Part shown: positions 8,184 to 62,178 of the stretch, one piece after another
How positions within the stretch are numbered: the stretch's first letter is position 1
How the letters are laid out: each line of letters opens with the position of its first letter
Source of the DNA: Nitrosomonas sp.
GTDB lineage: Bacteria; Pseudomonadota; Gammaproteobacteria; Burkholderiales; Nitrosomonadaceae
DNA length: 64,000 nt
Direction: 5' to 3'
NCBI RefSeq assembly: GCF_019752095.1
Contig: NZ_JAIEMO010000034.1
Coordinates: 1-64,000 of the forward strand
The notes under the pieces: model-generated
What the model was told of the DNA's origin: nothing
Database searches by the model: none
The model's input: the letters and a program-made list of their open reading frames with translations, nothing else
Program-made: the position numbers and the translations under genes

Positions 8184-8225
8184 GCACCGAATACTAAGGG
8201 TGTACGGCTACTGCTTTTGGTGCGG

Positions 8226-8232
8226 TTTTCCT
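8226..8232 (-). promoter_or_regulatory. Weak copy of the CGGAAAA phage motif
   Basis: The minus strand reads AGGAAAA followed by CCGC, 42 bases before the start at 8183. It has one mismatch to the motif seen upstream of other phage operons. Confidence 0.25.
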
Positions 8233-15167: not shown

Positions 15168-15187
15168 TTTATGATCGCTATCATAAA
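15168..15187. promoter_or_regulatory. Palindromic operator candidate
   Basis: Perfect 8-base arms TTTATGAT and ATCATAAA around CGCT, centred about 33 bases upstream of the DarB-like start. The position between the CGGAAAA motif and the start codon fits a repressor site. No regulator was identified. Confidence 0.4.
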
Positions 15188-15213: not shown

Positions 15214-15220
15214 TTTTCCG
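15214..15220 (-). promoter_or_regulatory. CGGAAAA phage promoter motif (DarB-like operon)
   Basis: The minus strand reads CCGGAAAACC, 70 bases before the start at 15144, in the same orientation as the gene. It matches the motif found before other phage operon heads. Confidence 0.4.
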
Positions 15221-22711: not shown

Positions 22712-24919
<2,208 letters not shown>

Positions 24920-24952
24920 GGTAAGCCGCTTTAAGGGCAGTATTTCGGTCTG

Positions 24953-24959
24953 TTTTCCG
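24953..24959 (-). promoter_or_regulatory. CGGAAAA phage promoter motif (polyvalent-protein operon)
   Basis: The minus strand reads GCGGAAAACA, 33 bases before the start at 24919. Sigma-70-like boxes TTGTAG (24962-24967) and AATACT (24939-24944) with 17-base spacing flank it, so either reading is possible. Confidence 0.35.
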
Positions 24960-25115: not shown

Positions 25116-26138
25116 TCATTTTACCGGCCATAACGCTTTCTTGTAAGCTAAAAACTCCGCAGCATTGTTAAGAGATGGCATAAGCGTAAGTCTTGAGACA
25201 TCTAAACGGTATAGCAATCGTAGAAGTGGATCAGCCTCAGATGCCGGAAGAGAGAAACGAATTAGAGGATATCTTATATAGTGCGTTCCTGGATCACGCT
25301 CAGCACTTACTGCATCCTCTATGCTTGGCCATCTTCCATTCATCAGAAAGAACCGATTGGCATTATTTATTAGGGTAAATACTCCTCGTTGTGCACGTAG
25401 AAATGAATTATTTGCTCGTGGTGCAGATACAGAACTAATACTTTTGACTGTGCCGAGCAATGGTGTGGCAAGACCAATAACAGCGAACTCAGCATCCATT
25501 CGATTGGTACCAGCTAAAGCGGATGCTTTCTCAGCAGCGAAATACGCAGCGACTAGCGGTGATTCAGTCCAATCTAGAAGACGGGTCGGGACACCATGGT
25601 GCTGAGCTAGCGCCACGCTTGGAAGAAACCGGTGGTCAGGAAACTCTAGGAATTGCTCGACTTCTTCATCTGGGCGACCTGAGCGTATTAAGTTAAGTAA
25701 AGTTTGATGGAGAGAAATGTGGCTATAATCAAGCGGGGTAAATATTCCGACTCGATCAGCAGCTTCTAGAAAAAGTAGTACAGCTCGCAATTCAGCATGC
25801 AAATGCATACCTAAGTATTCCCTAGTATTACCGCCGTCAAGTATTGGTTTATATGGTGGCTGAGGAGTAAATTCCTCTAGAGCGTCATATGTTCGATGTG
25901 CAGCAGGAAGAAGTGGCCAATCTATTCTCGCTTGACCTCTATAAATGTATCCATTGATATATTTTTCGCTAACATCGAAGATACTTTTCGGTTCAAATAT
26001 ATTCTCTTCGAGAAAGCATTCTATCAGTTCACGTGCGTTACTGAAGGAGTGATCAATATCATACATCTGATTCTCTGATCTCATGGTTAAAATGCTTAGG
26101 GTAAAAAGTACGACATCAGGAGCGTCCTGTTGTCCCAT
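25116..26138 (-). CDS. FRG-domain protein
   Basis: 340 residues. FRG domain signature: Y-I-Y-R-G-Q near residue 65, W-P-L-L-P-A-A-H-R, then A-Q-H-H-G-V-P-T-R-L-L-D-W-T near 185 and P-L-V-A-A-Y-F-A. FRG proteins are named for the F/Y-R-G motif and are frequent in mobile islands; the biochemical activity is poorly defined and some are suspected toxins or defence effectors. The first ATG lies inside the end of the upstream frameshifted membrane gene. Starts at 26084 or 26066 would also keep the domain intact, and none has a clear binding site. Lower GC than the surrounding phage genes and an insulating terminator suggest cargo. Confidence 0.85.
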   Translation of the reverse strand: MGQQDAPDVVLFTLSILTMRSENQMYDIDHSFSNARELIECFLEENIFEPKSIFDVSEKYINGYIYRGQARIDWPLLPAAHRTYDALEEFTPQPPYKPILDGGNTREYLGMHLHAELRAVLLFLEAADRVGIFTPLDYSHISLHQTLLNLIRSGRPDEEVEQFLEFPDHRFLPSVALAQHHGVPTRLLDWTESPLVAAYFAAEKASALAGTNRMDAEFAVIGLATPLLGTVKSISSVSAPRANNSFLRAQRGVFTLINNANRFFLMNGRWPSIEDAVSAERDPGTHYIRYPLIRFSLPASEADPLLRLLYRLDVSRLTLMPSLNNAAEFLAYKKALWPVK

Positions 26139-26713
26139 CTGTTAGTAACACACCACGCCATTCCGCATACTCGCGACCCTTTGGTGTTACTATAATTAAC
26201 CCTGATTCCTCAAGTTGTAAGAGGTGATGTGCCTGTAATGCAGATATAATTGCTTTCCGTTCATTCGCCGACGGGATAATTGGTATCCATACTGACTCAA
26301 AATAAGCATACGTCGTGGATTGTGGAAGGCCAATGAGCCAATCAAGAACGTGTTGGGTGCCTCGGACAAGAAAATGATTTAAATACCGATACTCCCAGAC
26401 ATATGCGGTAGCAATATGAGATCGTATTAACTGCTCGATAATTGACCTTTGTTGTGGCGTTAAATCAGAGGGTAATCCTGTGACAGAAACCTGATCATTA
26501 ACATTTGGCTCCAGTATTGGGCTTTTCTTTTCTGTTTGATTGCGGTGTGCTAACTTCAGTGCCGCCAGGTAGTCGAATTTTGGCCACTCGCAGGATTAAT
26601 GCTTTTATATCCTCTCTAAAAATAAGGATGATTAAAATTGTCATAATAGATATAACCATTGGCGCACTAAGTAGTATCTTTAAGTATTCAAGAACAATAT
26701 TCGCCATTTCCAT
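26116..26713 (-). pseudogene. Small membrane protein gene split by a frameshift
   Basis: The first frame gives 71 residues: a hydrophobic segment (P-M-V-I-S-I-M-T-I-L-I-I-L-I-F) followed by R-V-A-K-I-R-L-P-G-G-T, a pattern seen in many small bacterial membrane proteins, then a stop at 26498. The next frame has no ATG, GTG or TTG start near its beginning but stays open for more than 120 codons down to a stop at 26116, with sensible sequence (W-E-Y-R-Y-L-N-H-F-L-V-R-G). Removing one A from an AAAA run near 26540 on the minus strand joins them into about 195 residues. Either a real mutation, a programmed shift, or a sequencing error in a homopolymer. The reconstructed end overlaps the FRG gene start, so they would be one unit. 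Confidence 0.7.
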
Positions 26714-26953
26714 AGTATCTTCCAGTTAACAACTAATTATATAGTTTCCATTATCTTCCATATTTTTTGCTTGAACTGCAACAAAGTTGTTACGTTTAAT
26801 TGACCAAACTATCCTCAAAACGGTTTGAGGCCCCTGACACTGTTAATACTGATTAGTTTTCAAACGTGTGTATTTAAGTCGTGGAATTTGAGCGCATCTC
26901 TTCACAAAAAGAAGTACTATGCTTATTTAATTTTTAGAGAACAGGAGGTTGTT

Positions 26954-29473
26954 TTGGCTGACTTCAAGAAGCGATTAGCGGGCAAGAAGACAGAAAAGCC
27001 TACTAATCCACTAGAACTCTACAACACACTTGACAGAACGCATGATAAGGGACCGCTTCGACCTGCACAAGAATCTGTTTTAAGTGACTGGTTTAAGAAC
27101 TGTCAAACAAAGCGAGATGTCATCGTCAAACTCCATACGGGGCAAGGGAAAACACTCATTGGTCTCCTAATGCTACAATCAAGACTTAATGCTGGATCTG
27201 AACCTGTTGTATATCTATGCCCTGATCATTTTCTTATTGAACAAACTTGCGAACAAGCAAAACAGTTTGGTATAAAAACTTGCACAGCACCGGATGATCT
27301 ACCAGACGAATTTTTGAATTGCGGCAGCATTCTAGTGACTTCTGTACAAAAGTTATTCAATGGCTTAACAAAATTTGGATTGAATCGCCATTCAATTAAT
27401 GTTGATACAGTACTAATGGATGATGCTCACGCTTGTGCTGACCGCATTCGTGAGGCTTGTCGCATTAGAATTCCATACGATCAACCAGCATATAGCGCTA
27501 TGAGAACCTTATTCAGCAATGATTTGGAGCAACAAGGTGTTGGCACTTATGCGGACATCGTGAATGGCAAATATGATGCTTATCTACCTGTGCCCTATTG
27601 GGCATGGTTAGAACGAGAAAGCGAAATTGCAACCATCCTTTCAAAGCACTCCAATAGCAACTATATTAAATATGCTTGGCCTTTACTTAAGAATATTCTA
27701 AAACACTGCCAGTGCGTCATATCAAGTCAGGCTATTGAGATTGAGCCTTATGTGGCACCGCTTGCACATTTTGGGTCTTATTCTAAGGCCAAGCATCGCG
27801 TGTTCATGTCAGCCACCGTAACCGACGATGCCTTTCTTGTTAAAGGATTGCAGTTAGAAACTGACACGATCACACAACCATTGATCTATACAAAGGAAAC
27901 TTGGTCAGGTGAAAAAATGGTAATTTTGCCATCTCTCATTCATGACGATCTTGATCGTGAAATGATCGTAAATACATTTGGCAAACCAAATTCAAAGCGT
28001 ACTTATGGAATAGTGGCATTGGTACCAAGCTTCGCGCGAACAAAGGATTGGGAATCTCTGGGAGCCAAGATTGTCGAAAAAGGTTTTGTTGCCGATGCTA
28101 TTACAACATTAAGAAAAAGCGAATTTGAAAATACCATAGTTCTTGTCAATCGTTATGATGGAATTGATTTACCGGATGAAGTTTGTCGCATATTGATTTT
28201 TGATTCACGCCCATATTCGGAGAGTCTAATTGATCTACTCCAGGAACAGTGCAGACTGAACAGTGAGGCTACACTCATGCGAACAATTCGATCAGTTGAA
28301 CAAGGTATAGGTCGAAGTGTGCGGGGTGAGAAAGACTATTCTGTAATTGTCATCATAGGATCGGATATCATTAGACTTCTTCGCGAAAAAGGATCTCGCA
28401 AATATCTCTCAGCACAAGTGGCAACTCAGATCGAAATTGGACTTGAAATCGCTGAGATGGCAAAGCAAGATATCGAAGAAGATAGCACACCAGAAGAAGC
28501 TTTCAAGACATTGATAAAGCAATGCATCCAGCGTGATCCTGATTGGAAGGCCTACTATGCAGAACAGATGGCAAGAGTTGTTCCTACAAGCGCCAATGAA
28601 GCCGTCTTAAATATTTACGCAGCGGAATTATCTGCCGAACAACAATATATGGCAAGCGATTATGCAGGAGCTAGCAAATCTATACAAACGCTGCTAGACA
28701 GCAATGCTATACATTCAGATGATACTGGTTGGTATTTGCAAGAATGTGCTCGATACCTCTATATGTCGGATCGCGCAGAATCTCAAAGACTTCAAGTAGC
28801 GGCTCATAAGAAGAACCACCTGTTGCTCAAGCCACCAACTGGCGTAACTGTGACAAAACTGACAATCATCAGTCATGGACGAGCTGAACGCATAGTCCAA
28901 TGGATCAGTGGTTTCAGTACCTATCAGGATTTGGATACCACTATTTCCGACATCCTTAGCAATCTCGTTTTTGGAATAAAAGCTGAAAAATTTGAACGGT
29001 CACTCAACGAACTAAGTAAAGCATTAGGGTTTACTGGTGAACGCCCTGACGCAGAATGGAAGGAAGGACCGGACAACCTGTGGGCCCTTGATAATAAGCA
29101 ATATCTGTTAATCGAGTGCAAAAGTGAGGTAGAGGTCTTGCGCGCAGAAATCAACAAGCGCGAGGCAGAACAAATGAATCGGTCCAGTGCATGGTTTGAA
29201 AAGCACTATCCTGGCATGAAGGTTAAACGTTTAATTATTCACCCTGCAGGAAAAATAGAAAGTGCGGCTGCATTTACGCATGAGGTTGAAGGTGTTCGTG
29301 AATCCGATCTGAGAAAATTTGTTAAGGCATGCCGAGATTTCTTCAAGTCGTTCGAATCGCATGACTTTAATGATATATCTTCTCCTCATATACAAAGAAT
29401 GATCAACGCTTATCACCTCGACATATCAGATCTAGTCAGCATTTATTCAAGGAAACTCAAAGATATTAAGTAA
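26954..29473 (+). CDS. DEAD/DEAH-type helicase with C-terminal nuclease-like domain
   Basis: 839 residues from the TTG at 26954, which has AGGAGG five bases upstream; earlier in-frame starts lack a site. Helicase motifs: T-G-Q-G-K-T (about 61-66), V-L-M-D-D-A-H (about 152-158), F-M-S-A-T-V (about 285), and Q-G-I-G-R-S-V-R-G (about 450). Residues 500-640 are helical and repeat-like. Near 705-725, G-P-D-N-L-W followed by Y-L-L-I-E-C-K-S-E fits the D...ExK core of a PD-(D/E)xK nuclease. The gene is divergent from the FRG/membrane pair, and both are AT-rich. Probable defence protein acting on invading DNA or RNA. No established system was matched. Confidence 0.82.
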
Positions 29474-33295: not shown

Positions 33296-33371
33296 GTCTT
33301 TATCCTCATTAGGTCAGTGTCGGTTTCAGATACCTAACTGTATTTCAAACGGATAAACAAAAACCCGGCGG

Positions 33372-33378
33372 TTTTCCG
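33372..33378 (-). promoter_or_regulatory. CGGAAAA phage promoter motif (tail tube operon)
   Basis: The minus strand reads AACGGAAAACC, 77 bases before the tube gene start, in gene orientation. A TATCC-like box lies about 16 bases downstream. Confidence 0.4.
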
Positions 33379-36455: not shown

Positions 36456-36686
36456 TTATTTCCTTACTGAGTTAGCGATGGTCTTGGCGACAATGCCGCA
36501 CGCACTGATTACGCCATTGAGTCGATTTACGATGGCGATCTGAGTTTTTATTTCTGACTCCCTGCCCTTTTTCCAGTCCTCGAATGGCTTGCCCTTGAAG
36601 AACTTGTTCACATCACTGACCGGCATCGATAAAGCTTCGGTCAACGAGGTGTGGGAATAAATGCTGAGGCTAGACGCCTGGTTCAT
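36456..36686 (-). CDS. Small phage protein overlapping the preceding gene
   Basis: 76 residues, helical. It overlaps the 260-residue gene by 17 bases in another frame. Such overlaps can mark tail-assembly chaperones made by frameshifting, but no slippery heptamer was found at the overlap. Function unknown. Confidence 0.65.
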   Translation of the reverse strand: MNQASSLSIYSHTSLTEALSMPVSDVNKFFKGKPFEDWKKGRESEIKTQIAIVNRLNGVISACGIVAKTIANSVRK

Positions 36687-37452
36687 CAGATTCTCTGCCC
36701 AGGTCTTTCGCCAGTCTTGAGACGCAGGAACGAACCGGAAATCGCGCGGGTGGCAAATTACTTGCCGCCCCTCCTTTTGGTAAGGCTACGAATCCGTCAT
36801 TTGATAATTCGATTCTAAATAGATGATGCAACGATTCGCGGCCAGCCATGTATGCATTCAATAGCGTTGCAAAATCGCTTTCCGGATATCCTGATATGGT
36901 GCGAATTCTATTGGTCAGAAATTCATCGTAGGCACCCTCGCCATCGGATGCACTGAGGATTTCCTCATCTTTGCGCACCAATTGAGCGCCCATTCCACCA
37001 AGCAGCCAATGCAATCGCCCGGTTACACCCTCGACTTCACCTGATATTCGCTCAATTGACTCCGCCATAGCGCCTGTCATGTGCTGAATAAACCAGACAT
37101 CACCGCCAACATCGCCCACTTCGATCTTTTCTTCTGGAATAGGGATATCCGCCGATCCTTCCAGATAATCGGAATACCGGCCATCGCCCACAGAGAAATC
37201 AGGACCATCATCCGAAACAGCAGCCAGGTAATGACAGACAACCATCATTCGTTCTTGAACCGTCCAGTCTGACGGGTTTTCAATTCCTTTGACGGTCGCT
37301 ACTGCCTTAAGTAAGAATGCGGTCGTTACGGCTTCTTCAAGTTGAGAAGGCATGGCAGCAATAGCAATGGACTCGCCAATTGACAGCTCTTTGAGTTGAA
37401 CTGTTAAACGCCTTGTTCTCAGGATTGGGAAATGTACCACCGGGATTCTCAC
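36670..37452 (-). CDS. Phage tail protein, possible assembly chaperone
   Basis: 260 residues from a GTG. An N-terminal alternating region has L-K-E-L-S-I-G-E-S-I, a pattern of tail-assembly chaperones (V-x-L-x-E-L-T-V), followed by a helix V-Q-E-R-M-M-V-V-C-H-Y and a long C-terminal helical domain. The phage promoter motif is 55 bases upstream, so this gene starts its own transcript towards the lysis cassette. Alternative: minor tail or head protein. Moderate confidence it is virion-assembly related. Confidence 0.6.
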   Translation of the reverse strand: MRIPVVHFPILRTRRLTVQLKELSIGESIAIAAMPSQLEEAVTTAFLLKAVATVKGIENPSDWTVQERMMVVCHYLAAVSDDGPDFSVGDGRYSDYLEGSADIPIPEEKIEVGDVGGDVWFIQHMTGAMAESIERISGEVEGVTGRLHWLLGGMGAQLVRKDEEILSASDGEGAYDEFLTNRIRTISGYPESDFATLLNAYMAGRESLHHLFRIELSNDGFVALPKGGAASNLPPARFPVRSCVSRLAKDLGRESDEPGV

Positions 37453-37506
37453 CTTTAATTTCGATAGATGAGATTGTGCGCAATCTGAATCTCAGGATTT
37501 GCTGCT

Positions 37507-37513
37507 TTTTCCG
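37507..37513 (-). promoter_or_regulatory. CGGAAAA phage promoter motif (chaperone/lysis operon)
   Basis: The minus strand reads AGCGGAAAAAGC, 55 bases before the GTG at 37452, overlapping the stop-codon region of the upstream gene at 37515. Orientation matches the gene. Confidence 0.4.
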
Positions 37514-43328: not shown

Positions 43329-43715
43329 TGTCTTTGGTCCTCTGGTTTTGTTCACACACCCGGACTAAAGACCGGGCAACTATTCCCGGAATCAATGCGC
43401 CAAACGTGCACTGACACCGATAGAAGCCCGTATTTTGAGAGTCTAAAAATTGTTAAAACGTGGGATTTTCCGGTTTTAACTGGAAAGGCTTACTTCGCTG
43501 CTGTCTTGAGCGAAAATATGTCCCGTAAGAAGGTAATTATGCAGTTATTTGAAACGGTTTACCTTTATCACGATATTTTCTTAGGGTAAGTAAAAGATCT
43601 TTCCTATCAAAATTTAAGAAAACGCCTACTATTTTTGCGACCCACTAAATCCGTAATATTAAGATGATGAATTTTTCTCATCGTATTATTTATATGATTT
43701 ATTTTAAGAGAATAC
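43329..43715. other. Intergenic region between capsid gene and plus-strand cargo
   Basis: It contains the CGGAAAA motif facing the capsid gene. From about 43580 onwards it is AT-rich and presumably drives the plus-strand cargo block. No RNA element was seen. Confidence 0.6.
43466..43472 (-). promoter_or_regulatory. CGGAAAA phage promoter motif (major capsid gene)
   Basis: The minus strand reads ACCGGAAAATC, about 138 bases before the capsid gene start, in gene orientation. A TAGACT box lies about 20 bases further. The leader is longer than for the other operons. Confidence 0.4.
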
Positions 43716-44063
43716 ATGAAAAAAATTAATAAAGATGAAGATGGTGTTCACAGTTTAAATCTGAGTCAGACCGAAATTATTACGCTTGTATCCGGATATA
43801 TTCCTTATATTGTTTGTGAAGAAGAACCGGAAATTCCTGAGGGTGAATTTCTGTGGATTAAATATGTACCCGCCGAAAATGACATTATCCCTCCTGTTAT
43901 TGACCCGTTCCCATGCCGGATACTCTCGTACGGATGTTTTGCAAACCTTCTTCACATTCTTACGCTTTCCCCTGTTGAGTTTGATTTGGGTTTCAGGAAT
44001 ATGATCGAAGAATTCAAAGAAAATATAAAAAAGGAAGATAAGTACGTTCGTTTCATCATTTAA
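43716..44063 (+). CDS. Small cargo protein, unknown
   Basis: 115 residues, acidic (C-E-E-E-P-E-I-P-E-G), with aromatic and proline residues in the middle. No membrane segment or catalytic motif. AT-rich and transcribed opposite to the capsid operon. First gene of a four-gene plus-strand block. Function not recognised. Confidence 0.6.
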   Translation: MKKINKDEDGVHSLNLSQTEIITLVSGYIPYIVCEEEPEIPEGEFLWIKYVPAENDIIPPVIDPFPCRILSYGCFANLLHILTLSPVEFDLGFRNMIEEFKENIKKEDKYVRFII

Positions 44064-44222
44064 TTGTCACATGCAATCTAATTAATAAGCCGGAACATAC
44101 TTTTACAATCATTGTAGAGGTCGTAGACCGACACTAGAGACATACATGCTTATGTTTTATAGCGATATCTTCGTTTTCTAAAGTTTAATTTAATTACGCT
44201 GGATTTGACAAGGAATTTTATT

Positions 44223-44654
44223 ATGTTAGCAAGTGATTTAATGAGTACAAAGCTTCTTACCATTGGATTAGAAGACAAACTATCTGTAGTTAAGGAAATA
44301 TTTGAAAAAGTGAATATTCACCACTTAGTGGTGATCGAATTAGGAAAAGTTTTTGGAGTTGTCTCAGATCTGGATTTGTTTAAGGCGTTGAGTCCAAATA
44401 TTGGAAAAATGACAGAGACACTTAGGGATGCCGCAACATTAAATAAACGTGTTTACCATATTGTTAGTCGTAATCCTGTCGTACTCCAAACAACTGCAAC
44501 AATTGATGAAGTGATCCAGGTATTTAATACGCATAGTTTTTCATGTATTCCAATCGTTGATCACGACATGAAGCCCCGTGGAATTATTACTCTCAGAGAT
44601 ATCATTAAAGCTCTAGCCGAAAGAAAACTAAAGCTTTATATGAACAGCCATTAA
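44223..44654 (+). CDS. Two-CBS-domain protein
   Basis: 143 residues from the ATG at 44223 (AAGGA upstream); an in-frame TTG at 44205 is less likely. Two CBS motifs: M-S-T-K-L-L-T-I ... H-H-L-V-V-I-E and S-R-N-P-V-V-L-Q-T ... I-P-I-V-D, ending R-G-I-I-T-L-R-D-I. CBS pairs bind adenosine nucleotides and act as energy sensors. As a free-standing protein it resembles AcuB-type regulators. It ends directly at the next ATG. Confidence 0.88.
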   Translation: MLASDLMSTKLLTIGLEDKLSVVKEIFEKVNIHHLVVIELGKVFGVVSDLDLFKALSPNIGKMTETLRDAATLNKRVYHIVSRNPVVLQTTATIDEVIQVFNTHSFSCIPIVDHDMKPRGIITLRDIIKALAERKLKLYMNSH

Positions 44655-45212
44655 ATGAATATAACCTTAAATAATCTGCAATGGGTTAACTATATTGAAT
44701 CTCTACAAGGAGATGACAATCAATCATCACTCTACTCAGAGTGGCGCATTTTTTCTCGTTTTGAAATGCTAGAGAATGGCATACAGCAATTCAAATTTTT
44801 AGGAGGCGAAAAACCAAAAGAATTAATATTTGAATTAAATTTAATGTCTGCCCATAGACACTCGAACGAAATTAAAAAGCATAGATTAGAGAATTCAGCG
44901 GGGGCTTTAGTTTGCTTGGGTGATAAATACAGTAATAATTTTATTGTTAGCGGAATTATAGTCCTCAGGGAGGAAGTCTATGATGAAGTGATTTTGTCCA
45001 CCAGGTCATCGACCTCTTTAGATTCACAACTTATTTTGAGTTTAAACGGCTTGGAACCCCCGAAAGCAGGTAATACCATTCCTATCTGGAATAATGTTAA
45101 AAACAAGAAATTGAGAATTACACATGTGCAGACTAACTTTCATTATGGACACCCTCATTTACCTGATTATTCTACCCATCGCCATTTGGGAGCTTGGCTC
45201 AAATCGATATAG
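44655..45212 (+). CDS. Unknown protein after the CBS gene
   Basis: 185 residues, start codon directly after the CBS protein stop (TAAATG), so translation is coupled. Beta-rich N-terminal half and a C-terminal histidine-containing motif, H-Y-G-H-P-H-L-P-D-Y. No family recognised. AT-rich cargo. Confidence 0.65.
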   Translation: MNITLNNLQWVNYIESLQGDDNQSSLYSEWRIFSRFEMLENGIQQFKFLGGEKPKELIFELNLMSAHRHSNEIKKHRLENSAGALVCLGDKYSNNFIVSGIIVLREEVYDEVILSTRSSTSLDSQLILSLNGLEPPKAGNTIPIWNNVKNKKLRITHVQTNFHYGHPHLPDYSTHRHLGAWLKSI

Positions 45213-45363
45213 CCTTTTATTAAAGAATAACTGAAACATTTTTATTATTTCAAATTATCTATAAATCAATAAATTTTTCAATAGTACACCTACTTCCAGA
45301 CTGGTTTATTTTTCTTTTTTTTGTCGCAAATAACTGTTTATTTTTATCAGACACTTTCAAAAA

Positions 45364-45918
45364 ATGGATACTTTTACAATTCTGCCCAAAGCTTTTGTTC
45401 ATATTGAGCCCAAGCAATTATTGCTGATTTATATTGGTTTCTTATTATTCTTGTTCACTATCTCTGCCTTTTTGCTGAGACATAGGAGAAAATTAGAAAT
45501 TTTCAAGTATAAAACGCTTGGAAAATTGCTTTCGGATGCAGAGCATTCTTTCTACCTTGTTTTAAGACAAGCTTTATTGAATGAAAAATATGAAATATTT
45601 GTGAAAGTTCGCATTGCTGACGTTCTTTTACCAGAGAATGATTTAAATCGAGGGAATTGGAAAAGTGCATTCAACAAGATATCGTCAAAGCATTTTGATT
45701 ATGTTCTTTGCGATAAAAATACCCTTTCAGTAGTTGCAGTTATTGAATTAGATGATAAAAGCCATGATCAAGTCGTAACACGTGCTCGAGATATTTTTAT
45801 AGAGAAAGTTTGTGAAACTGCTGGCTTAAAACTACTGCACTTCCCATACAGAGCTAATTATCATATTCAGTCAGTGCGCGATAAAATCATCAGTTCCCTT
45901 AGTCCCCCAACAATTTAA
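45364..45918 (+). CDS. DUF2726 protein with N-terminal membrane anchor
   Basis: 184 residues. One membrane helix at 18-38 (L-L-L-I-Y-I-G-F-L-L-F-L-F), then the DUF2726 core: L-S-D-A-E-H-S-F-Y, V-K-V-R-I-A-D-V-L, F-D-Y-V-L-C-D, V-A-V-I-E-L-D-D-K-S-H and R-D-I-F-I-E. The D...E-L-D-D pattern fits a PD-(D/E)xK-like nuclease fold. Located next to capsid and neck genes as cargo; a membrane-tethered nuclease would fit DNA-entry defence, but that is inference. Confidence 0.82.
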   Translation: MDTFTILPKAFVHIEPKQLLLIYIGFLLFLFTISAFLLRHRRKLEIFKYKTLGKLLSDAEHSFYLVLRQALLNEKYEIFVKVRIADVLLPENDLNRGNWKSAFNKISSKHFDYVLCDKNTLSVVAVIELDDKSHDQVVTRARDIFIEKVCETAGLKLLHFPYRANYHIQSVRDKIISSLSPPTI

Positions 45919-50224: not shown

Positions 50225-50289
50225 ATTAAAGACTCCATTCAGTGAATTTCTTTAATAATGACGCTTTGATACCGGCTAATTACCTGGTT

Positions 50290-50296
50290 TTTTCCG
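50290..50296 (-). promoter_or_regulatory. CGGAAAA phage promoter motif (prohead protease operon)
   Basis: The minus strand reads CGGAAAA, 4 bases, AGGTA, 9 bases, then TATCAA, 65 bases before the protease start. Its plus-strand twin lies 17 bases away, facing the portal gene. Confidence 0.5.
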
Positions 50297-50313
50297 GTTA
50301 ACCCTGCTTTCTG

Positions 50314-50320
50314 CGGAAAA
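50314..50320 (+). promoter_or_regulatory. CGGAAAA phage promoter motif (portal operon)
   Basis: The plus strand reads CGGAAAA, 4 bases, AGGTA, 10 bases, then TATACAA, about 62 bases before the portal start. Same layout as the opposite-strand copy, which argues for an orientation-dependent element. Confidence 0.5.
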
Positions 50321-50382
50321 TGTAAGGTATTTCACTGCCTATACAACCTAATATCTACGCATCATTTGCCATAGTGTGAAAT

Positions 50383-55286: not shown

Positions 55287-56012
55287 ATGACTTCTACTGT
55301 ACTTCCTTGTAATAACAAACTTCTAAATACTCTACCTGAATCTGATTTCACTGCGGTAATGGATCAGTGTAGATTAGTTAACTTAACAGCTGGAGAAGTA
55401 ATTTATGAGTCATCGGAATATATCGAATCAATCCATTTCCCAGTTAATTGCATCGTTTCTTTAATGTATGAAACATTAGATGGCAAATCGTCAGAAATCG
55501 CCTCTATCGGTAATAATGGCGCAGTAGGAAGCGACCTTATTTTAAGTAACAGTCCCACCATTCATCGAGCCCTTGTTGTACATGACGGCTGGGCATACCA
55601 AATGAAAAGAACTGCAGTACTTGATCAATTTAATAAAGCAGAATTATTTAAATACCAATTGTTAAATTACATTCAGAATCTCACAACGCAAATATCATTT
55701 AATGCCGTTTGCGCCAGATTTCATAAGATAGAACAACAATTTTGTAAATTTCTGCTACTTCATAATGATTGGGTTCCAGGCAAAATATCATTTACCCAAG
55801 AAGCTATTTCTCATCTTTTAGGTGTGCGTCGCGAAACCATTACTGAAATAGCTAGTAATCTACAAAAAGCGAACATAATCGATTACAAACGGGGAGAAAT
55901 TCACATTTTAGATCGCCAGGCACTTGAAGTGCATTCGTGCGAATGTTATCAAGCAATAAAAAACACCTTACATTCTGAAGACGAAAATTACGTGCTGGAT
56001 ACTTGTCATTAA
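55287..56012 (+). CDS. Crp/Fnr-family transcription regulator
   Basis: 241 residues. N-terminal cyclic-nucleotide-like sensor domain (I-H-F-P-V-N-C-I-V-S-L) with no Fnr cysteines at the expected N-terminal positions. C-terminal helix-turn-helix: F-T-Q-E-A-I-S-H-L-L-G-V-R-R-E-T-I-T-E (about 171-190). It resembles Crp-type regulators common in chemolithotrophs rather than phage repressors. It stands at the edge of the stress block and could regulate it. Lower GC than phage genes. Confidence 0.88.
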   Translation: MTSTVLPCNNKLLNTLPESDFTAVMDQCRLVNLTAGEVIYESSEYIESIHFPVNCIVSLMYETLDGKSSEIASIGNNGAVGSDLILSNSPTIHRALVVHDGWAYQMKRTAVLDQFNKAELFKYQLLNYIQNLTTQISFNAVCARFHKIEQQFCKFLLLHNDWVPGKISFTQEAISHLLGVRRETITEIASNLQKANIIDYKRGEIHILDRQALEVHSCECYQAIKNTLHSEDENYVLDTCH

Positions 56013-56040
56013 TAACGGTTAAAATAGTTTAGTAAAAACG

Positions 56041-56070
56041 CTTCGCGCTGGTCAGCGGCGCGACCCTTGA
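56041..56070 (+). repeat. Dispersed 30-base repeat, copy 1
   Basis: The element begins CTTCGCGCTGGTCAGCGG and continues CGCGACCCTTGA. It is one of three related copies, all in the 55-62 kb block, and has near-palindromic arms (CGCGCTG with CAGC-CGCG). REP-like; role unknown. Confidence 0.7.
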
Positions 56071-56187
56071 ACGTGCAGAGGATTAAAGCAGCTTATGATA
56101 GAACCCCTGCGTTTGCGGCAAGCAGCAAAGCCTCGAGGCCCCCTTTAAAGATTTGCTACTAGTAAGGGTTTAAAAAACTTTTTATTT

Positions 56188-56502
56188 TTAAGTTAATATT
56201 TTATAAATTGGATCATCTAGATCAATAAAAGAATAATAATAAAGTTCCTCAGTTCCTGCTTCCACAAGATTATTGCTCAAAGCTATTTGCCAACAGAAAT
56301 TAAAATCGTTATGTGCAGTACTTCTTTCTTTTAGTGGAATAGTTGAGTAGGGATAACAAACTACAAATTGATCATTTAGTTTTGTCCGGATTAATATCGC
56401 AGCTTGCATAATTGCCCTTCCACCAAAATAATTTAGTAACGGTATTGATATCTCTGCTCTAAAGTTTATTTGCGGCAATCCACCCATAATTAATAGCTGC
56501 AT
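56188..56502 (-). CDS. Small protein, uncertain
   Basis: About 104 residues from the ATG at 56502; a TTG at 56520 is possible. No clear ribosome-binding site. Some plausible secondary structure (Q-F-V-V-C-Y-P-Y-S-T-I) but no family. It may be a remnant, as the region upstream looks like decayed coding sequence. Confidence 0.35.
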   Translation of the reverse strand: MQLLIMGGLPQINFRAEISIPLLNYFGGRAIMQAAILIRTKLNDQFVVCYPYSTIPLKERSTAHNDFNFCWQIALSNNLVEAGTEELYYYSFIDLDDPIYKILT

Positions 56503-56520
56503 CGCAGGTATCTGGAACAA

Positions 56521-56866
56521 TGTTTAAACGTTGCGCTTTGTGACCATAGCAAATGCAGTTTGCTTTGCTGGAAACGCATGCAGCAACTTGCGACTAATCG
56601 ACCGCATCAAATAGCATTGAGAGCGATTCTCTTGTGCTTGAAATGCGATGACAGGTTGCGATACCGGCATTACGCTGCCAGGTGCCGATTCGCTTTCCTA
56701 TGTTGATAAATTATTTTTCCCTCTTCATTTGATGCAATCAGGGCAATTGTATCAGCTAGACGGCCAGTAATACGGCCATAAGTAAAAACGACTATAGTTG
56801 GTAAGCGCACAGACTGCGCCTGACAACTGCGATATATTTAGATTTTAAATAATCGAGGTAAACAAA
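56521..56866. other. Intergenic region with possible decayed coding sequence
   Basis: On the minus strand, short protein-like runs appear in more than one frame over about 56530-56710, broken by stops, so this may be a degraded gene; none was identified. At the right end, GAGGTAAACAAA is the ribosome-binding site of the BON protein gene. Confidence 0.35.
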
Positions 56867-57190
56867 ATGAAATCTATAAAACTAATTGTTACTTTGTTCT
56901 TCATCAGCATATTCTTTATTCCTGCCGTTGTTTCTGCAGCTGATTCTAGCGTAGGCGAATTTGTTACAGACTCAGCTATTACTACTCAAATTAAAGCCAA
57001 GTTACTTGGAGAAAAGGATATTGATTCTTTGCACATCAAAGTAGATACAGATAATAATGGGGTTGTGGTACTTACTGGTGCCGTGAAATCAAAAGCCGAA
57101 GAAGAGATTGTGCACAATATTGCGCATTCCGTGGATGGTGTAAAGAAAGTTGTAAACAAATTAATAGTTGATCCAGCGCTATTCAATTAG
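56867..57190 (+). CDS. Periplasmic BON-domain protein (OsmY-like)
   Basis: 107 residues. Signal peptide ending V-S-A|A-D, then one BON domain: I-T-T-Q-I-K-A-K-L, V-V-V-L-T-G-A-V, and G-V-K-K-V-V-N-K-L-I-V. BON proteins bind phospholipid surfaces and are induced by osmotic or envelope stress. GAGG lies 8 bases before the ATG. It stands alone on the plus strand with its own promoter region. Confidence 0.92.
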   Translation: MKSIKLIVTLFFISIFFIPAVVSAADSSVGEFVTDSAITTQIKAKLLGEKDIDSLHIKVDTDNNGVVVLTGAVKSKAEEEIVHNIAHSVDGVKKVVNKLIVDPALFN

Positions 57191-57270
57191 CGCCGATAGA
57201 GGAAACTATTTTTTGCGGAATCTATTTACATTCTAATAAAACCGCCTAGCAGAAAGGAATAAAGGCCAAG

Positions 57271-57306
57271 ATCAATATCTCGGCCGCAACCGACCGAGAT
57301 ATTGAT
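57271..57306. repeat. Perfect 13-base inverted repeat
   Basis: ATCAATATCTCGG pairs with CCGAGATATTGAT around a 10-base loop. It lies about 80 bases after the BON gene. Seven T follow, but 15 or more bases away, so it may be a terminator or an operator. Long and exact for chance. Confidence 0.6.
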
Positions 57307-57420
57307 GTGCAAGCTCAAACTTTTTTTCATTTCAACTATCACACTAAGCTTATTTTCAACAAACTGGCGAATAAAGAAAAATGCTTGAGGGATTGGACTG
57401 CTTACTTCTGCGAGCATATG

Positions 57421-57451
57421 CTTCGCACCAGTCAGCGGGCGTGACCCTTGG
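57421..57451 (+). repeat. Dispersed 30-base repeat, copy 2
   Basis: The element begins CTTCGCACCAGTCAGCGGGC and continues GTGACCCTTGG. It shares order and spacing with copies at 56041 and 61519. Confidence 0.65.
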
Positions 57452-57487
57452 ATGAAATAAAATTAAATGGCAACATTATAGATACAG

Positions 57488-57769
57488 TTATGTTTTCTTG
57501 GCATAAGCAGTGCACCACCCATTAGGACTAACACTGCCTTTCAAAACTTTGCACTCGCCATTAGTTTCTGGTGTTTTACCCGGAATGAATTGCATGCAGT
57601 TACTGCATTGCTCCTCTCCGTTTGGTTCGTCACGATATTTCATTAAACCCTTGGAAGCTTTTGCTGCATGTGCTTGGCCAACTATGCTATTCACAATAGG
57701 AAAAGTGGCTCCTATCGCCATGAATTTTATCATCTTACGCCGCGAGAATTTCTTTTCAAAGTAACTCAT
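57488..57769 (-). CDS. High-potential iron-sulfur protein (HiPIP)
   Basis: 93 residues. A twin-arginine signal (S-R-R-K-M-I-K-F) is followed by the hydrophobic helix and A-H-A cleavage site. The mature part has four cysteines at 55, 58, 73 and 86 in C-S-N-C, G-E-C and G-W-C, the HiPIP cluster ligation pattern. A periplasmic one-electron carrier, typical of chemolithotrophs and phototrophs. The gene is not phage-like. GAGGT lies just upstream of the ATG. Confidence 0.93.
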   Translation of the reverse strand: MSYFEKKFSRRKMIKFMAIGATFPIVNSIVGQAHAAKASKGLMKYRDEPNGEEQCSNCMQFIPGKTPETNGECKVLKGSVSPNGWCTAYAKKT

Positions 57770-58378
57770 GGTCTCACCTCATTAGATTATTATGAAACTT
57801 GCTTTAAAATATGATCAAAACATATTTTTATAATAATAAATGTAGAAACAAGATTGTTCTGTACGATAGCAAACATTTCTACAGTGCTGGTGTTAACTGC
57901 TTGTACCCGGGCAGTCATGATTAACAACATAGCGGTAAGTCTCTTCAGTCGGCAGGGTTCAAGCAGCATGCAACCTTTCGGGTGCATGCTCTTCTAGCCA
58001 TCATCTTCCTGCATAAGAGAACGCATTTTAATTTTATAGTGAATGTATTATAAAATACTATAGGTACCCTCTAAAAATACAGTTTTTGATAATTACTACC
58101 TTAATTAATCAGATAGTTACAAGTGTTTTCTTGCAAAAGAGGTAATTTTTAGAGGTGACATAGATGTAATTTCTTTCGATATGGATCAACTTGTAATCCA
58201 AGAGAAAAAACACTAAACATTTTTATATTTACACCTCCGTACTAGCTCATTAACATTCACTAAATATTACGCAATGCAACCCCACTCTGTTCCGTGTTTT
58301 AATGCACAGAACCAGCCTGGACACGATCATTATCATTACTTTAATTCTTTGCTTTCTCTGCGCAATCAAACGTGGAAG
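57770..58378. other. Long AT-rich intergenic region
   Basis: It contains a hairpin at 57965-57990 (AGCATGCAACC/GGGTGCATGCT, one mismatch, TTTC loop), a strong stem without a T-run. I see no intact gene or RNA otherwise. Confidence 0.5.
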
Positions 58379-58536
58379 CTATAATCGGCCCATCAGCATC
58401 AGAATGAGCAAGATCAACACTATTTTCCAAGGATGCCACTGGGGAAATAACCCCACTCTCTACTGTGTGGCCAAGTTGGAATAGCGCCGATCAATATCAG
58501 TACCAGAGTTATCATTAGTATCGCTCCTGGTGTCAT
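58379..58536 (-). pseudogene. DUF3309 small membrane protein, frameshifted
   Basis: The ATG at 58536 has AGGAG upstream. The protein reads M-T-P-G-A-I-L-M-I-T-L, I-G-A-I-P-T-W-P-H-S, then G-Y-F-P-S-G-I-L-G-K and a stop at 58420. The next frame continues I-V-L-I-L-L-I-L-M-L-M-G-R-L and stops. This is the complete DUF3309 pattern (P-T-W-P-H-S, G-Y-x-P-S-G, final hydrophobic helix and G-R) with one base missing in an A-run at 58423-58426. Adding one A gives 52 residues. Either a real loss or a homopolymer error. Confidence 0.8.
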
Positions 58537-58740
58537 TTTATTTCTCCTAAACTATTCTTTAAAAGATTTGGCTATAAATTATTATCATTTTCAATCTACC
58601 TTTCCTCCGCGCAAAACACCAAATAACCCAACCACGCATGCAACAGTGCCTTCGATCAATAACCATATGGCCTTGAAATAGCACACAAATGGATGTCGAT
58701 TCTTTTTATAGATGTTTCAATTTAAAATGAGGAATTCATA

Positions 58741-58797
58741 GTGAACAAGGCTCAAGTAAAGGGTGAAGCAAAAGACATCATAGGAAAAGTTCGGTAG
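58741..58797 (+). pseudogene. CsbD-family stress protein fragment
   Basis: GTG start with GAGGA upstream; 18 codons read M-N-K-A-Q-V-K-G-E-A-K-D-I-I-G-K-V-R, then TAG. This is the N-terminus of CsbD-like proteins (M-N-K-x-x-V-K-G), which normally reach about 60-70 residues. The rest is missing. It belongs with the stress gene set and is probably a decayed copy. A separate short hydrophobic frame on the minus strand lies near 58600-58680, which I could not name. Confidence 0.65.
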
Positions 58798-58912
58798 TGG
58801 CAACAGATTTTAAAAGTGCTTAGGTGGCAGCAATATAAAAAATTTAGTATTAAAACTATTTTCTGAGTGAGTATACTTTCAACAGAACTGGATTTACAGA
58901 TTACTCAAATAT

Positions 58913-60625
58913 TTACGGAAGAGTGTTTGCCTTTCTCCTAAACTTCTTACTAAACCAGCGCCATACCAGGCCATCCGCTATAACCTCTCCGCTAATTATA
59001 TAACTCAATGCCTTATAATTGCTCAACACAACAGATAATGTATTTCTTGCATTCAACCGTCCACAGAACAATATCTGATCACGATTTTTAATATGAATGC
59101 CCCAATCAGGGAGCAATAATGGGTTGTCATCACGTAGCAACATTAAAGGCATGAGTTCCAGTTTTAAGTCTCGGTTGCCAGGGTCACGCGCCAGATTATC
59201 AAGTGTCACAGTTACTCTCTGAGACAATAAAGTAATTACCGCCGGAGCATGAGAGTCATCAATCATGATCGTCCATGTCTCGGGCACTTGTTCTCCAATA
59301 GTGTTCACTAATCGGCTTATTAATTGATTTGCCCAGCTATTAGTCTGGATACGTACCAGAGATAGAAAACCAGCAAGCAACGGAGATATCATATGCGCCA
59401 AACATTCATGCGCAATAATGTTACTGGGTTGCATCGTAATGTTGGCTTTATAGTGGTCGAATAAAATATCGTTAAAACGCTTGTTCTTACGAATGACTAC
59501 AAATAATTCTGGATTCATTTCTCGCGCAGTTATAACGATAGAAAGGTTGTTTACATCATTATCTGTTCCAGCGACAATGCCAAGAGCATTTTTGATGTCA
59601 GCTTCTTCTAAAGTTTTAGACTCGGTGCCGCTCCCAATAATACACGCTTCACATCCTGTTAATTCCGGATTGGCCTCAATAATAGTGATAGTGATTTCTT
59701 CGCGTTGAAGACTTTTTACGACTGACTTTCCAAAGCGTCCATAACCACATACTACCCATTTGCCAATAGGCGGACAATCTGGGGATTGGAGACTCTGTCC
59801 TGGGATACCAGTAAGCCATTCATGAAGCAGATAAATGCCGAGCGCATGTACTTGCATTGCCAAATGATCCCCGAACAATGTGTATGGGTTAATAATATGA
59901 TCTGTCTTAAAAGACTCCATATTGGCTGCTGTATCAGCATTTTCAGCCCGACCTAGAACCATCAAGGAGGGGTTTATTATTTTGGCTGCAATAGCCACCG
60001 CAAGATTTGCATGATCATTATTAGTCAGTGCTGCGATCCCTGCACACATCGAATGCCTTATCCCAGCCTTAATCAAAACGTCGGGCAGCTCAACATCAGC
60101 ACATAATGCGGGAATATCATACTGATAATCTTCTAGCTCAAGATCGTTGATTCGATCTTGCAGGATTTCGATAACGACAACTCGTATATGCTTGCGATCA
60201 AGTGAATTAACTAACAAACTGCCAGTCTCACCATATCCGCAAATAATATAGAAAGGGTCACGCAGGCGTGTCACAGCTTTAGTAAATCTTGATGTGGTAA
60301 TAGCAATATTTAAGCTAACATCCTGAAACAGCGCGATGATATTACCAATAGCGTAGAACCACGAAATAACTGTCAGATAGATGGAGAATGTCATCCAAAG
60401 ACGTTGGGCTGTACTGAATTCATGCGGCACTTCCCCAAAACCAATAGTAGTAGCGGTGTAACTTATGATATAGAACGCCTGGAACAGCGATAGATAGAAA
60501 ATTTCTCCCTCGATCTCAATACCTGGCATCAGCGTCATTCCAAAAACAGCTATACCGAAGCTGACAATTACTGCGATAAGAGGAGCGCGAATGCGCCGCA
60601 GAATGAGGAAAACGATATTATTCAA
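58913..60625 (-). CDS. Potassium channel with two TrkA-N/RCK domains
   Basis: 570 residues. Two membrane helices flank the pore; selectivity filter T-A-T-T-I-G-F-G-E (57-65). Two NAD-binding RCK domains begin I-C-G-Y-G-E-T-G-S (about 128) and V-C-G-Y-G-R-F-G-K (about 298). It gates K+ flux in response to nucleotides. It is next to a small membrane protein gene, as commonly seen. Chromosomal style, not phage. A useful element for osmotic or ionic adaptation. Confidence 0.9.
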   Translation of the reverse strand: MNNIVFLILRRIRAPLIAVIVSFGIAVFGMTLMPGIEIEGEIFYLSLFQAFYIISYTATTIGFGEVPHEFSTAQRLWMTFSIYLTVISWFYAIGNIIALFQDVSLNIAITTSRFTKAVTRLRDPFYIICGYGETGSLLVNSLDRKHIRVVVIEILQDRINDLELEDYQYDIPALCADVELPDVLIKAGIRHSMCAGIAALTNNDHANLAVAIAAKIINPSLMVLGRAENADTAANMESFKTDHIINPYTLFGDHLAMQVHALGIYLLHEWLTGIPGQSLQSPDCPPIGKWVVCGYGRFGKSVVKSLQREEITITIIEANPELTGCEACIIGSGTESKTLEEADIKNALGIVAGTDNDVNNLSIVITAREMNPELFVVIRKNKRFNDILFDHYKANITMQPSNIIAHECLAHMISPLLAGFLSLVRIQTNSWANQLISRLVNTIGEQVPETWTIMIDDSHAPAVITLLSQRVTVTLDNLARDPGNRDLKLELMPLMLLRDDNPLLLPDWGIHIKNRDQILFCGRLNARNTLSVVLSNYKALSYIISGEVIADGLVWRWFSKKFRRKANTLP

Positions 60626-60679
60626 ATTTGAATCTCAGTGGATTCATAGCTAATTTTGATTAATTGTAGGATTAACTAT

Positions 60680-61054
60680 TTAACGTCGAAGACTAAGCGT
60701 CTCAGCTATTAAAAGAATGACAGAGACAATATTTGCCAGCAAAGCTCCACCTGCTAATGAAACAACATGATTAATCATTGTGTGTTCAGCAGGAGTATCG
60801 CCTACTGCGGCATAAAGAATTGCTGCCACAATAAGTTGCAAATCAGCAACCAAGCTTGTAGATAGGTGAACAGCTCCTATCTGTGTGCGATCTCCAAACT
60901 TTAATACCGTTGCAATGAGATTGACGATAATGGCGGCATACAATTCATACGGATGATGATGTGCGGGATTGTCAATGTCGCCAATGACAAATCCGAAATT
61001 AAGCGTCAAGGCCAGTACAATAAAGAAACCAAAAACCACTTTTTCAAGATTCAT
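60680..61054 (-). CDS. DUF6394-like membrane protein
   Basis: 124 residues. Motif P-A-H-H-H-P-Y-E-L-Y-A-A-I-I-V-N followed by T-V-L-K-F-G-D-R-T-Q-I-G-A is characteristic of this family as I remember it. Three to four membrane helices. It lies upstream of the channel gene on the same strand, 54 bases apart, and probably forms an operon with it. Function unknown, linked to the channel by genomic association. Confidence 0.8.
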   Translation of the reverse strand: MNLEKVVFGFFIVLALTLNFGFVIGDIDNPAHHHPYELYAAIIVNLIATVLKFGDRTQIGAVHLSTSLVADLQLIVAAILYAAVGDTPAEHTMINHVVSLAGGALLANIVSVILLIAETLSLRR

Positions 61055-61569
61055 ATAAAATCTCTTTTAACATTCAATTGGTACGGTATTAAATAATGAA
61101 GGGAAAATCAAATTGATAGGAGTCGCACTTCCAGCGCCACCTTTGATGCCAACAAGTTAATATACTAGACGCAACTTGAAATTAATCGTGCATAAACCAC
61201 AGAATCCTTAATAGTTATTTATTCCAATATATACATACAAAATTTCAAAAAATATAGCAATGGAAAAACAATAAATTAAACATGCCTTACCTTAATAATC
61301 TAATCAATCGATTATCCAGCTTGCTTTATACGCCCCTTAGAGTTCCGACGTGAACGGGTGTCAATAGTGCGGATAGTTCCATTTTCCCCTCTCGCAATTG
61401 ATTATTTGATTATACCTCACCGAATTGAAATCAAATTCTATTTAGCCATAAGAAGGAATACAAATAAAGAAAATACGCGTTAGGGATCGGGCAGCATGCT
61501 CACTTACGGGGTCATACCCTTCGCGCCGGTCGGCGGCGCGAGCCCTGGGGAAGTTGTAGGTTAAATTAT
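61055..61569. other. Intergenic region with dispersed repeat
   Basis: AT-rich until about 61480. It holds the third copy of the 30-base repeat at its right end. No gene or clear RNA was seen. Confidence 0.5.
61519..61548 (+). repeat. Dispersed 30-base repeat, copy 3
   Basis: The element begins CTTCGCGCCGGTCGGCGG and continues CGCGAGCCCTGG. Related to copies at 56041 and 57421; the three bound most of the stress block. Confidence 0.65.
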
Positions 61570-61962
61570 TTAGTTATTTCTCTTAATTTCTTTGAAGTGC
61601 GCTATAGCGATACGTGCGGCATTCCTTGCTGAATCATCATTGTCATAATATCCATTTTCAATAGCCTTCTCCAAACTAACAATGGCCATTGCTAAATGAA
61701 TACGGTTGGCAGACGAAATATACTCTTGATCTTGCACTGAAAGCGCATGACTTATTGCGGTTGTTGAGTGTCTTGCAATTGTTGCTCCATCATCAGCAAT
61801 TATTGAAGCCTCAGAATATCTAATAGCCTGATGTAAATGATTCTCTGCCATACATGCAGATAGAGCTAAGGTTATAATAATTATGATACTGGAATACAGT
61901 AAATCTTGTTGATTCTTAAAATAAATTTTGGATTTGCTACTCATTACATTATTTTCAAACAT
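61570..61962 (-). CDS. SmbP-like small metal-binding lipoprotein
   Basis: About 131 residues from the ATG at 61962; ATG at 61944 and TTG at 61977 are alternatives. Lipoprotein signal ending A-L-S-A-C. The mature part has helical repeats with spaced histidines: H-L-H-Q-A-I-R-Y, R-H-S-T-T-A-I-S-H-A, I-H-L-A-M-A-I-V and A-I-A-H-F. This resembles the small metal-binding protein family first found in Nitrosomonas europaea, where His-rich helices bind copper and other divalent metals. Fewer histidines than the type protein. Confidence 0.6.
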   Translation of the reverse strand: MFENNVMSSKSKIYFKNQQDLLYSSIIIIITLALSACMAENHLHQAIRYSEASIIADDGATIARHSTTAISHALSVQDQEYISSANRIHLAMAIVSLEKAIENGYYDNDDSARNAARIAIAHFKEIKRNN

Positions 61963-62178
61963 TATTATAAGCCCCAATGTAATTTTCTGACTATTTGTAC
62001 ATAAGTATAGAACTCTGAAATTATCCCAATGTTTTAAATAAACTGGTTTTAGCGTCTATTTGTGTTATACCTACTTCTTTAAAGATTTTTAGAAGCAACC
62101 CATCCGTAATTAGTCGTTCCTGTTAAAGTTTTCAATTTATTGTCCGTTATAGCAATTGCATTTGTATTGTATCTCCCC

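Follow-up and report, generated by a model that had tools for sequence, protein, structure and literature searches.

Late-gene leaders of the prophage

In the gap between the divergent protease and portal operons of a Nitrosomonas prophage, the heptamer CGGAAAA occurs twice, at 50290..50296 on the minus strand facing the protease operon and at 50314..50320 on the plus strand facing the portal operon. Positions refer to the window, the whole 64,000-nucleotide stretch that was analysed (bases 1-64000 of the 103,374-base contig NZ_JAIEMO010000034.1, assembly GCF_019752095.1). The portal copy is followed after 28 nt by the hexamer TAATAT (50349..50354, plus strand; TAACAT in the related contigs G022 and G020), and the protease copy after 29 nt by CATTAT (50255..50260, minus strand). 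Further minus-strand copies lie before the major capsid operon (43466..43472; 28 nt to CAAAAT at 43432..43437), the gene at 36670-37452 (37507..37513; 28 nt to CACAAT at 37473..37478), the tail tube operon (33372..33378; 29 nt to TACAGT at 33337..33342), the InPase/DarA_N gene (24953..24959; 29 nt to TACCAT at 24918..24923, which overlaps the first ATG of the ORF at 24919) and the DarB-like helicase/methylase gene (15214..15220; 28 nt to TATGAT at 15180..15185). The gene at 36670-37452 belongs to PHROG 6830, has a weak PmgB-like match and is followed by an M15 peptidase gene. An eighth site, absent from the initial annotation, carries AGGAAAA (8226..8232, minus strand) 29 nt before TAGTAT (8191..8196) and precedes a 96-aa gene (7893-8183), whose ATG lies 7 nt downstream of the hexamer; AGGAAAA-N29-TAGTAT is kept in the related contigs G061, G022 and G020. 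As read from the gene map, the eight predicted promoters head the portal, protease, capsid-sheath, 37507 (M15 peptidase), tail tube, DarA-like and DarB-like operons and the tail-region block from 8183 down. At the terminase genes the box was not found.

Islands at 15510, 25116, 33480 and 43716 each lie just upstream of a predicted late promoter. The island at 15510-18975, upstream of the DarB-like promoter, has no tblastn matches in six related contigs and encodes a Vsr nicking endonuclease, a HATPase protein matching type II restriction models and a cytosine methylase. Likewise unmatched in these contigs is the island at 25116-29473, which encodes a protein with an FRG domain (PADLOC PDC-S15) and a helicase of 882 aa, almost all of which is covered by its match to the candidate defence model PDC-S28. 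Small cargo genes (CBS domain, DUF2726 and unknowns) at 43716-45918, between the protease and capsid operons, are partly present in the related contigs G063/L009. From sequence reading, host-like genes (Crp/Fnr-like, BON-like and a TrkA-like channel) occupy 55287-61977 between a late operon and the terminase genes; the proteins encoded at 58913-60625 and 60680-61054 are 92% and 98% identical in the G063 phage contig.

Placement of CGGAAAA

Both strands of the window together hold 13 copies of CGGAAAA, against 13.6 expected from shuffled sequence (sd 3.8), and a general enrichment of the word is thus rejected. Sense leaders account for 3.0% of window positions when leaders are defined from our own greedy ORF set, and they contain seven of the 13 copies. 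CGGAAAA ranks first among 3,146 leader 7-mers, with a binomial P of 3.6e-8, or about 6e-4 after multiplication by 16,384 for all 7-mers. Because the total abundance is at the level of chance, the unusual feature of the word is its placement only. The initial annotation had set the chance expectation for a given 7-mer at about once per 16 kb per strand and had judged repeated sense copies in short leaders meaningful. The seven copies that it listed are correctly located, and all are sense-oriented in gene leaders. The list was a partial one, as the window contains six more copies, all within ORFs (sense at 4490, 16255, 18317 and 43150; antisense at 16202 and 24527). The whole 103-kb contig contains 23 copies, 7 in leaders and 16 in ORFs. 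That a 7-mer picked by eye stands before these genes by chance would agree with a total that equals expectation, but its first rank among leader 7-mers and its conservation in relatives leave this reading a negligible probability.

The −10 hexamer and its spacing

A sigma70-like −10 hexamer follows the box after 28 or 29 nt at all seven leader copies of CGGAAAA. The seven hexamers (TATGAT, TACCAT, TACAGT, CACAAT, CAAAAT, CATTAT and TAATAT) have A in the second and T in the sixth position and score 2.9-6.5 with weights based on textbook frequencies. None of the 16 ORF copies in the 103-kb contig has a scoring hexamer at 28 or 29 nt; a loose NANNNT is seen at one of them (CACCTT at 100894, score 0.0) and at none of the other 15. 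Equal density of the motif inside genes had been named in advance as evidence against a promoter. For the bare 7-mer count this condition does apply, but once a −10 is required the leaders give 7/7 and the ORFs 0/16 by score. The pair 28/29 is the best pair of offsets in the prophage contig, G061 and G062, and is tied by 27/28 in G022 and G020.

A TTGACA-like −35 hexamer was searched for 16-18 nt before the −10 at the eight sites, and at most 2 of 6 positions match. An ordinary sigma70 promoter does not describe these sites, as all eight are without a −35 hexamer. Promoters of ECF sigma factors have a GGAA motif about 16 nt before the −10, and the 28-29 nt spacing rejects this class as well. 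With the hexamer set as −12 to −7, the box falls at about −48 to −41. A second part beside the box, at +12 to +17, is weak and variable, and a fixed second half-site was rejected by eye because positions 12-20 are consistent neither as a direct nor as an inverted reading. A box combined with a −10 and no −35 is, as far as sequence can tell, the layout of an activator-dependent sigma70 promoter.

The same promoter could have its box bound by a host protein or, as an UP element, by the alpha subunit of RNA polymerase. The box lies at about −48 to −41, a region to which the C-terminal domains of alpha bind, as do many host activators of class II, and the phage HTH protein described below is assigned by position and co-occurrence alone. 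However, the GG of the box, which is invariant partly by definition, is unlike A-tract UP elements, and a −10 without a −35 suggests a dedicated activator. Furthermore, one box is found in contigs of Nitrosomonas genomes, a Xanthomonas phage and other viral contigs, yet that of Acinetobacter phage ABMM1 differs. Recognition by a host factor is therefore rather unlikely.

Conservation in related contigs

The closest named relatives of the prophage are in Nitrosomonas genomes. Six related contigs were compared: G061, G062, G063 and L009, with about 80% DNA identity around the portal gene, and G022 and G020, with 57-58% portal identity; L008/G063 and L009 derive from one Nitrosomonas strain. CGGAAAA is present in 40/40 mapped leaders (seven genes in the prophage and the six contigs, with not every gene in each). 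The flanks of the conserved boxes often diverge. The hexamer is retained across the mapped leaders, and the spacer varies only between 28 and 29 nt. An extra intergenic CGGAAAA-N28-TATTAT is seen in G022:C5 at 20899 on the plus strand (L014), and no gene start is called closer than 260 nt to it.

The divergent protease and portal copies share, as had been pointed out, the longer layout CGGAAAA-N4-AGGTA-N9/10-TAT(A/C). This extension does not survive as a conserved core, because it is mostly gone in relatives. AGGTA at the portal copy is retained in the four close relatives and lost in G022 and G020; at the protease copy it is kept in G062 only, and the others read AGCTA, AGTAA or GGTAA. TAT(A/C) is retained solely at the protease copy of G062.

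Occurrence in distant phages

Viral contig pieces that contain a strong relative of the HTH gene described below number 48; in these, CGGAAAA-N28/29-YANNNT occurs 31 times, always on the strand of the HTH gene, and 7 times in reversed sequence; the 48 pieces and 31 matches include near-identical contigs such as L061/L062 and L084/L085. The 24 pieces with weak HTH relatives (L098-L121) were rejected as carriers, as they gave 6 full matches against 10 reversed ones and so no excess. NGGAAAA occurs in 44 of 49 non-redundant leaders, taken from the portal, protease, capsid and PHROG-6830 genes of HTH-bearing viral contigs, compared with 3/49 when the leaders are reversed; starts mapped beyond residue 40, too-short leaders and near-duplicates (85% identity) had been left out. 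All 44 boxed leaders have NANNNT at 28 or 29 nt, the best of four offsets, and 28 of them have YANNNT. Selection by a capsid profile yielded 62 non-redundant leaders (76 loci minus 3 truncated leaders and 11 duplicates), of which 39 contain CGGAAAA and 58 contain NGGAAAA, against 3 and 5 in the reversed control. NANNNT stands at 28/29 in 58/58 boxed capsid leaders, with the better of the two offsets taken per site; other offsets give a mean of 5.2 and a maximum of 18. The GG is invariant in these 58 sites, in part by definition because the search word was NGGAAAA. The capsid profile included four capsids from HTH-selected contigs, and the capsid- and HTH-selected contig sets overlap heavily. 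Because the leader rows share ancestry, these counts are not independent events.

The box is missing in 4/62 capsid leaders and 5/49 leaders of the other set. In L177, one of the four boxless capsid rows, the start may be misplaced, having been mapped from residue 192; some other starts were mapped from residues 20-96. L163 and L166 have related capsid genes with leaders that lack the box, and may use another activator.

Xanthomonas phage Rb1 shares 57% portal identity with the prophage. The hexamer accompanies six of its ten CGGAAAA copies, at 29 nt in every case. Of these six, five lie 47-102 nt before a gene (capsid, 41755 beside endolysin, internal head protein, 65072 and tail-collar), and the sixth has no gene start near it. 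Rb1 thus has such sites before five genes and the prophage before eight, so that in both several sites per genome precede late structural operons. AGGAAAA before the Rb1 protease gene and CGGAAAT before 46620 also fit. Rb1 contains 16 copies of [AGT]GGAAAA, and because 3 of the 11 within coding sequences also show the hexamer, single degenerate matches mean little. One of the degenerate copies in Rb1 (L044), GGGAAAA-N29-GATAAT at 689, lies 40 nt upstream of the position where the HTH gene is annotated to start, which may reflect autoregulation or chance. Open-licence PMC articles, a narrow and therefore weak source on this point, yielded none on Xanthomonas phage Rb1 or on a CGGAAAA phage promoter, and among the literature matches listed, no title or opening part of an abstract reports this promoter.

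CGGAAAA was rejected as the box of the more distant Acinetobacter phage ABMM1 (L046/L047; 31% portal identity), with 0/8 copies intergenic and one ORF match with a hexamer. This failure led the search to TGGAACY, which the ABMM1 leaders carry; because it was picked by viewing those leaders, it should be taken as a lead and offers no blind test. TGGAACY is intergenic in 16/28 copies, in a genome that is 8.5% non-coding. NANNNT stands at 28 or 29 nt for 14/16 intergenic copies versus 5/12 coding ones, and the latter fraction indicates that NANNNT is a loose pattern in AT-rich DNA. TGGAACY-N28-NANNNT precedes many late genes of ABMM1, and TGGAACY occurs twice before rusA (59516 and 59559). The word "promoter" has no occurrence in the main text of the ABMM1 paper by word search, and that paper treats another Xre protein as lysogeny-related (PMC10345192).

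Start codons close behind the −10 hexamer

In the ORF at 22712-24919 (InPase/DarA_N), the first ATG overlaps the −10 and a second ATG, at 24910, lies 7 nt after the hexamer. Because of this overlap, the real start is probably 24910. An automatic gene call would likely misannotate this start (window 24908-24919). Consistently, the hexamer is followed by an ATG at 6-7 nt in 10 of 12 DarA-like orthologs (G062, G061, G022, G020, L175, L136, Rb1, L190, L148 and L127), a count that leaves out three rows short of the N-terminus and shows identical leaders once. The two exceptions are L185, without a box, and L167 (34% identity), whose AGGAAAA match has no start behind it. The 96-aa gene has an ATG behind the hexamer in 7/10 cases (the prophage itself, G061, G022, G020, Rb1, L075 and L198), and its box is missing in L156, L153 and ABMM1. 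The position of ATG 6-7 nt behind the hexamer supports the placement of +1 and predicts two leaderless late mRNAs. We consider it quite probable that the DarA-like and 96-aa genes produce such mRNAs, and we infer from the position of the start codons that translation would be leaderless.

The start codons also bear on whether the box is a promoter element at all. Conserved intergenic DNA of phages can be structural, and the box might be a DNA site for packaging, replication or recombination, or an RNA element, next to which the −10 is coincidental. However, the box is oriented with the downstream gene, the hexamer keeps one spacing in 58/58 cases, and a start codon follows 6-7 nt behind it at two genes, so that such a role is very improbable. 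In all likelihood, CGGAAAA is a late-promoter element. The proposal of a phage-specific late promoter or activator site in the initial annotation is thus supported, as far as comparative sequence analysis reaches, by leader placement, conservation, fixed −10 spacing, the missing −35 and the presence of the box in distant phages.

Candidate activator and proposed mechanism

Just outside the window, rusA and the terminase genes flank a minus-strand gene (64644-65279 of the contig) for an XRE-type HTH protein. The gene order is RusA, zinc finger, HTH, terminase small subunit and terminase large subunit, where the small-subunit label is based on synteny with Rb1. Rb1 has the order annotated Holliday-junction resolvase, HTH, zinc finger, terminase small and terminase large subunit; the RusA of the prophage has no tblastn match in Rb1. 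In ABMM1, RusA is followed by HTH, and the large terminase gene is elsewhere in the record. The protein contains an HTH_31/HTH_3 domain (PF13560, 39.2 bits with a cut-off of 27; PF01381, 27.7 bits with a cut-off of 23). A structural model of the L049 homologue (82% identical) has the HTH domain, a 62-residue helix and a further helix, with a mean pLDDT of 81.7 and a pTM of 0.46. The nearest folds of the HTH domain include ImmR, C.AhdI, SinR and P22 c2 by Foldseek (E 0.007 and above) as well as by sequence profile.

The HTH gene co-occurs with the box. Of 33 long records selected by their capsid gene (those of 77 capsid loci in records over 40 kb, except L123, which is the G061 record), 31 encode it, and all 31 have a boxed capsid leader. 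Among the two records in which no HTH gene was detected, the 48-kb G452/L163 is without the box too, and the other (G458/L178), a fragment of 42.6 kb, has TGGAAAA. The protein occurs in one plasmid record at E 1e-10 (Ideonella), and across 369 genomes of the class only in the prophage's own genome at E 1e-30. The recognition-helix block GYxNxSKLxKxE is near-constant in phages with GGAAAA, and ABMM1 reads GTPHKNRMSEIE. In three HTH proteins that are one residue shorter in the following loop, the first C of the box is replaced by G or A. Helix and box appear to change in parallel, but phylogeny alone could give the same pattern, and the evidence that links HTH protein and box is mostly phylogenetic. 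As a rule, XRE proteins act as dimers on operators with two-fold symmetry, and they are often repressors. One strong box with a weak second part counts against an HTH activator, because dimers of this family would be expected on symmetric operators. On balance, position and co-occurrence point to the XRE-type HTH protein as the likeliest activator of the box promoters, with a fair probability.

Another phage protein could play this role: the DksA/TraR-like zinc finger (65300-65488), an HNH-like 236-aa protein or a KilAC antirepressor. The small zinc-finger gene adjoins the HTH gene, and the Rb1 annotation lists two zinc fingers, one of the TraR/DksA type at 89475 and one next to the HTH gene at 1811. 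TraR-like proteins act on RNA polymerase (PMC9239242). By tblastn, however, the zinc finger of the prophage is found only in G061 and G063, though G022, G020 and Rb1 have the box, and the 236-aa protein is found in neither Rb1 nor ABMM1; these results concern only the candidates tested. An activator of this kind is accordingly improbable.

The likeliest reading is that the box is the upstream part of the late promoters in a large lineage of P1-like myophages, at which a phage activator, most likely the HTH protein, would recruit the sigma70 polymerase; we hold this to be probable. The promoter would consist of [C/A]GGAAAA, 28 or 29 nt and a sigma70-type −10 (NANNNT), with no −35. A phage-made activator would bind the box late in infection and recruit host RNA polymerase with sigma70, which would be unable to start there alone, so that the structural operons would be switched on together. 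This activator would most likely be the XRE-type HTH protein encoded at the place of lpa in P1. Transcription starts at these sites, their late timing, the need for an activator and the HTH protein as that activator are all deduced here from sequence. A more far-reaching reading, which we give an even chance, is that this P1-like lineage has an XRE-type HTH protein in place of Lpa whose recognition helix coevolves with the box, GGAAAA being paired with GYxNxSKLxKxE and TGGAACY with the diverged ABMM1 protein, and that the DarA-like gene and the small tail-region gene are deliberately leaderless, a trait conserved across distant phages.

The box is very probably, as judged from these comparisons, part of the switch for virion production in a large, little-studied phage group. 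With the rule [C/A]GGAAAA-N28/29-NANNNT, late operons and start sites can be predicted, and start codons corrected, in dozens of viral contigs that lack annotation. In addition, a candidate activator is named, and these phages would offer a series in which variants of activator and box are naturally paired. The predicted leaderless late mRNAs raise the question of how some virion proteins are translated late in infection.

Comparison with known systems

The Lpa system of P1 serves as the model of how late genes are controlled in its group. The prophage is related to P1 at 24.5% portal identity and 25.1% capsid identity over 60%. In P1, Lpa binds a 9-bp inverted repeat at 11 late promoters (PMC10695390). 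P1 and, by prediction, the prophage have several late promoters scattered over the genome, and the sigma70-like −10 of Lpa-type late promoters is found here too. P1 has lpa just before pacA/pacB, and the prophage has the HTH gene just before the terminase genes. However, the P1 repeat is placed at −22 in record notes, whereas the box of the prophage lies at about −48 to −41 and the spacers of the prophage share no such repeat. The Lpa-type repeat (AAGTnACTT-like, near −22) was accordingly rejected for the prophage sites. The 103-kb contig has AAGTnACTT three times; the eight spacers lack it. A perfect 4+1+4 repeat is present only at the 24959 site among the eight (AAGCGGCTT, with 6/8 letters like AAGTnACTT, lying against the −10) and is not retained in G061 or G022 (GGACGGCTT and CAGCGGCTT). 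The capsid leader of P1 has the annotated −22 repeat, and no box was seen there in P1 or D6. A tblastn search with P1 Lpa (PHROG 1704) in the prophage contig, G061, G062, G063, L009, G022, G020, Rb1 and ABMM1 gave a best E of 3.4, several of these contigs being possibly incomplete phages; the positive control, P1 itself, gave 1.5e-100. Many P1-like phages in viral collections would thus differ from P1 in promoter layout and probably also rely on an activator that is unrelated.

Mu Mor and C bind dyad sites. Middle and late promoters of Mu need one of these phage activators, Mor or C (PMC4461284, PMC4287176). The promoters of the prophage would likewise be activated by a phage protein, and box sequence and protein family appear to differ from those of Mu. 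The closest solved relatives of the HTH domain are restriction-modification C proteins and XRE regulators of the SinR/ImmR type, with weak Foldseek support (0.007 at best). C proteins activate promoters when bound next to the −35. Unlike C proteins, SinR and ImmR, the phage HTH protein is modelled with an added 62-residue helix and a further helix. Lambda CII is an HTH activator that binds around the −35 of promoters without a good −35; it uses direct TTGC repeats, in contrast to the one strong box of the prophage. An activator-dependent late promoter is already known from phages, whereas the box, its place and its probable activator family appear to be new.
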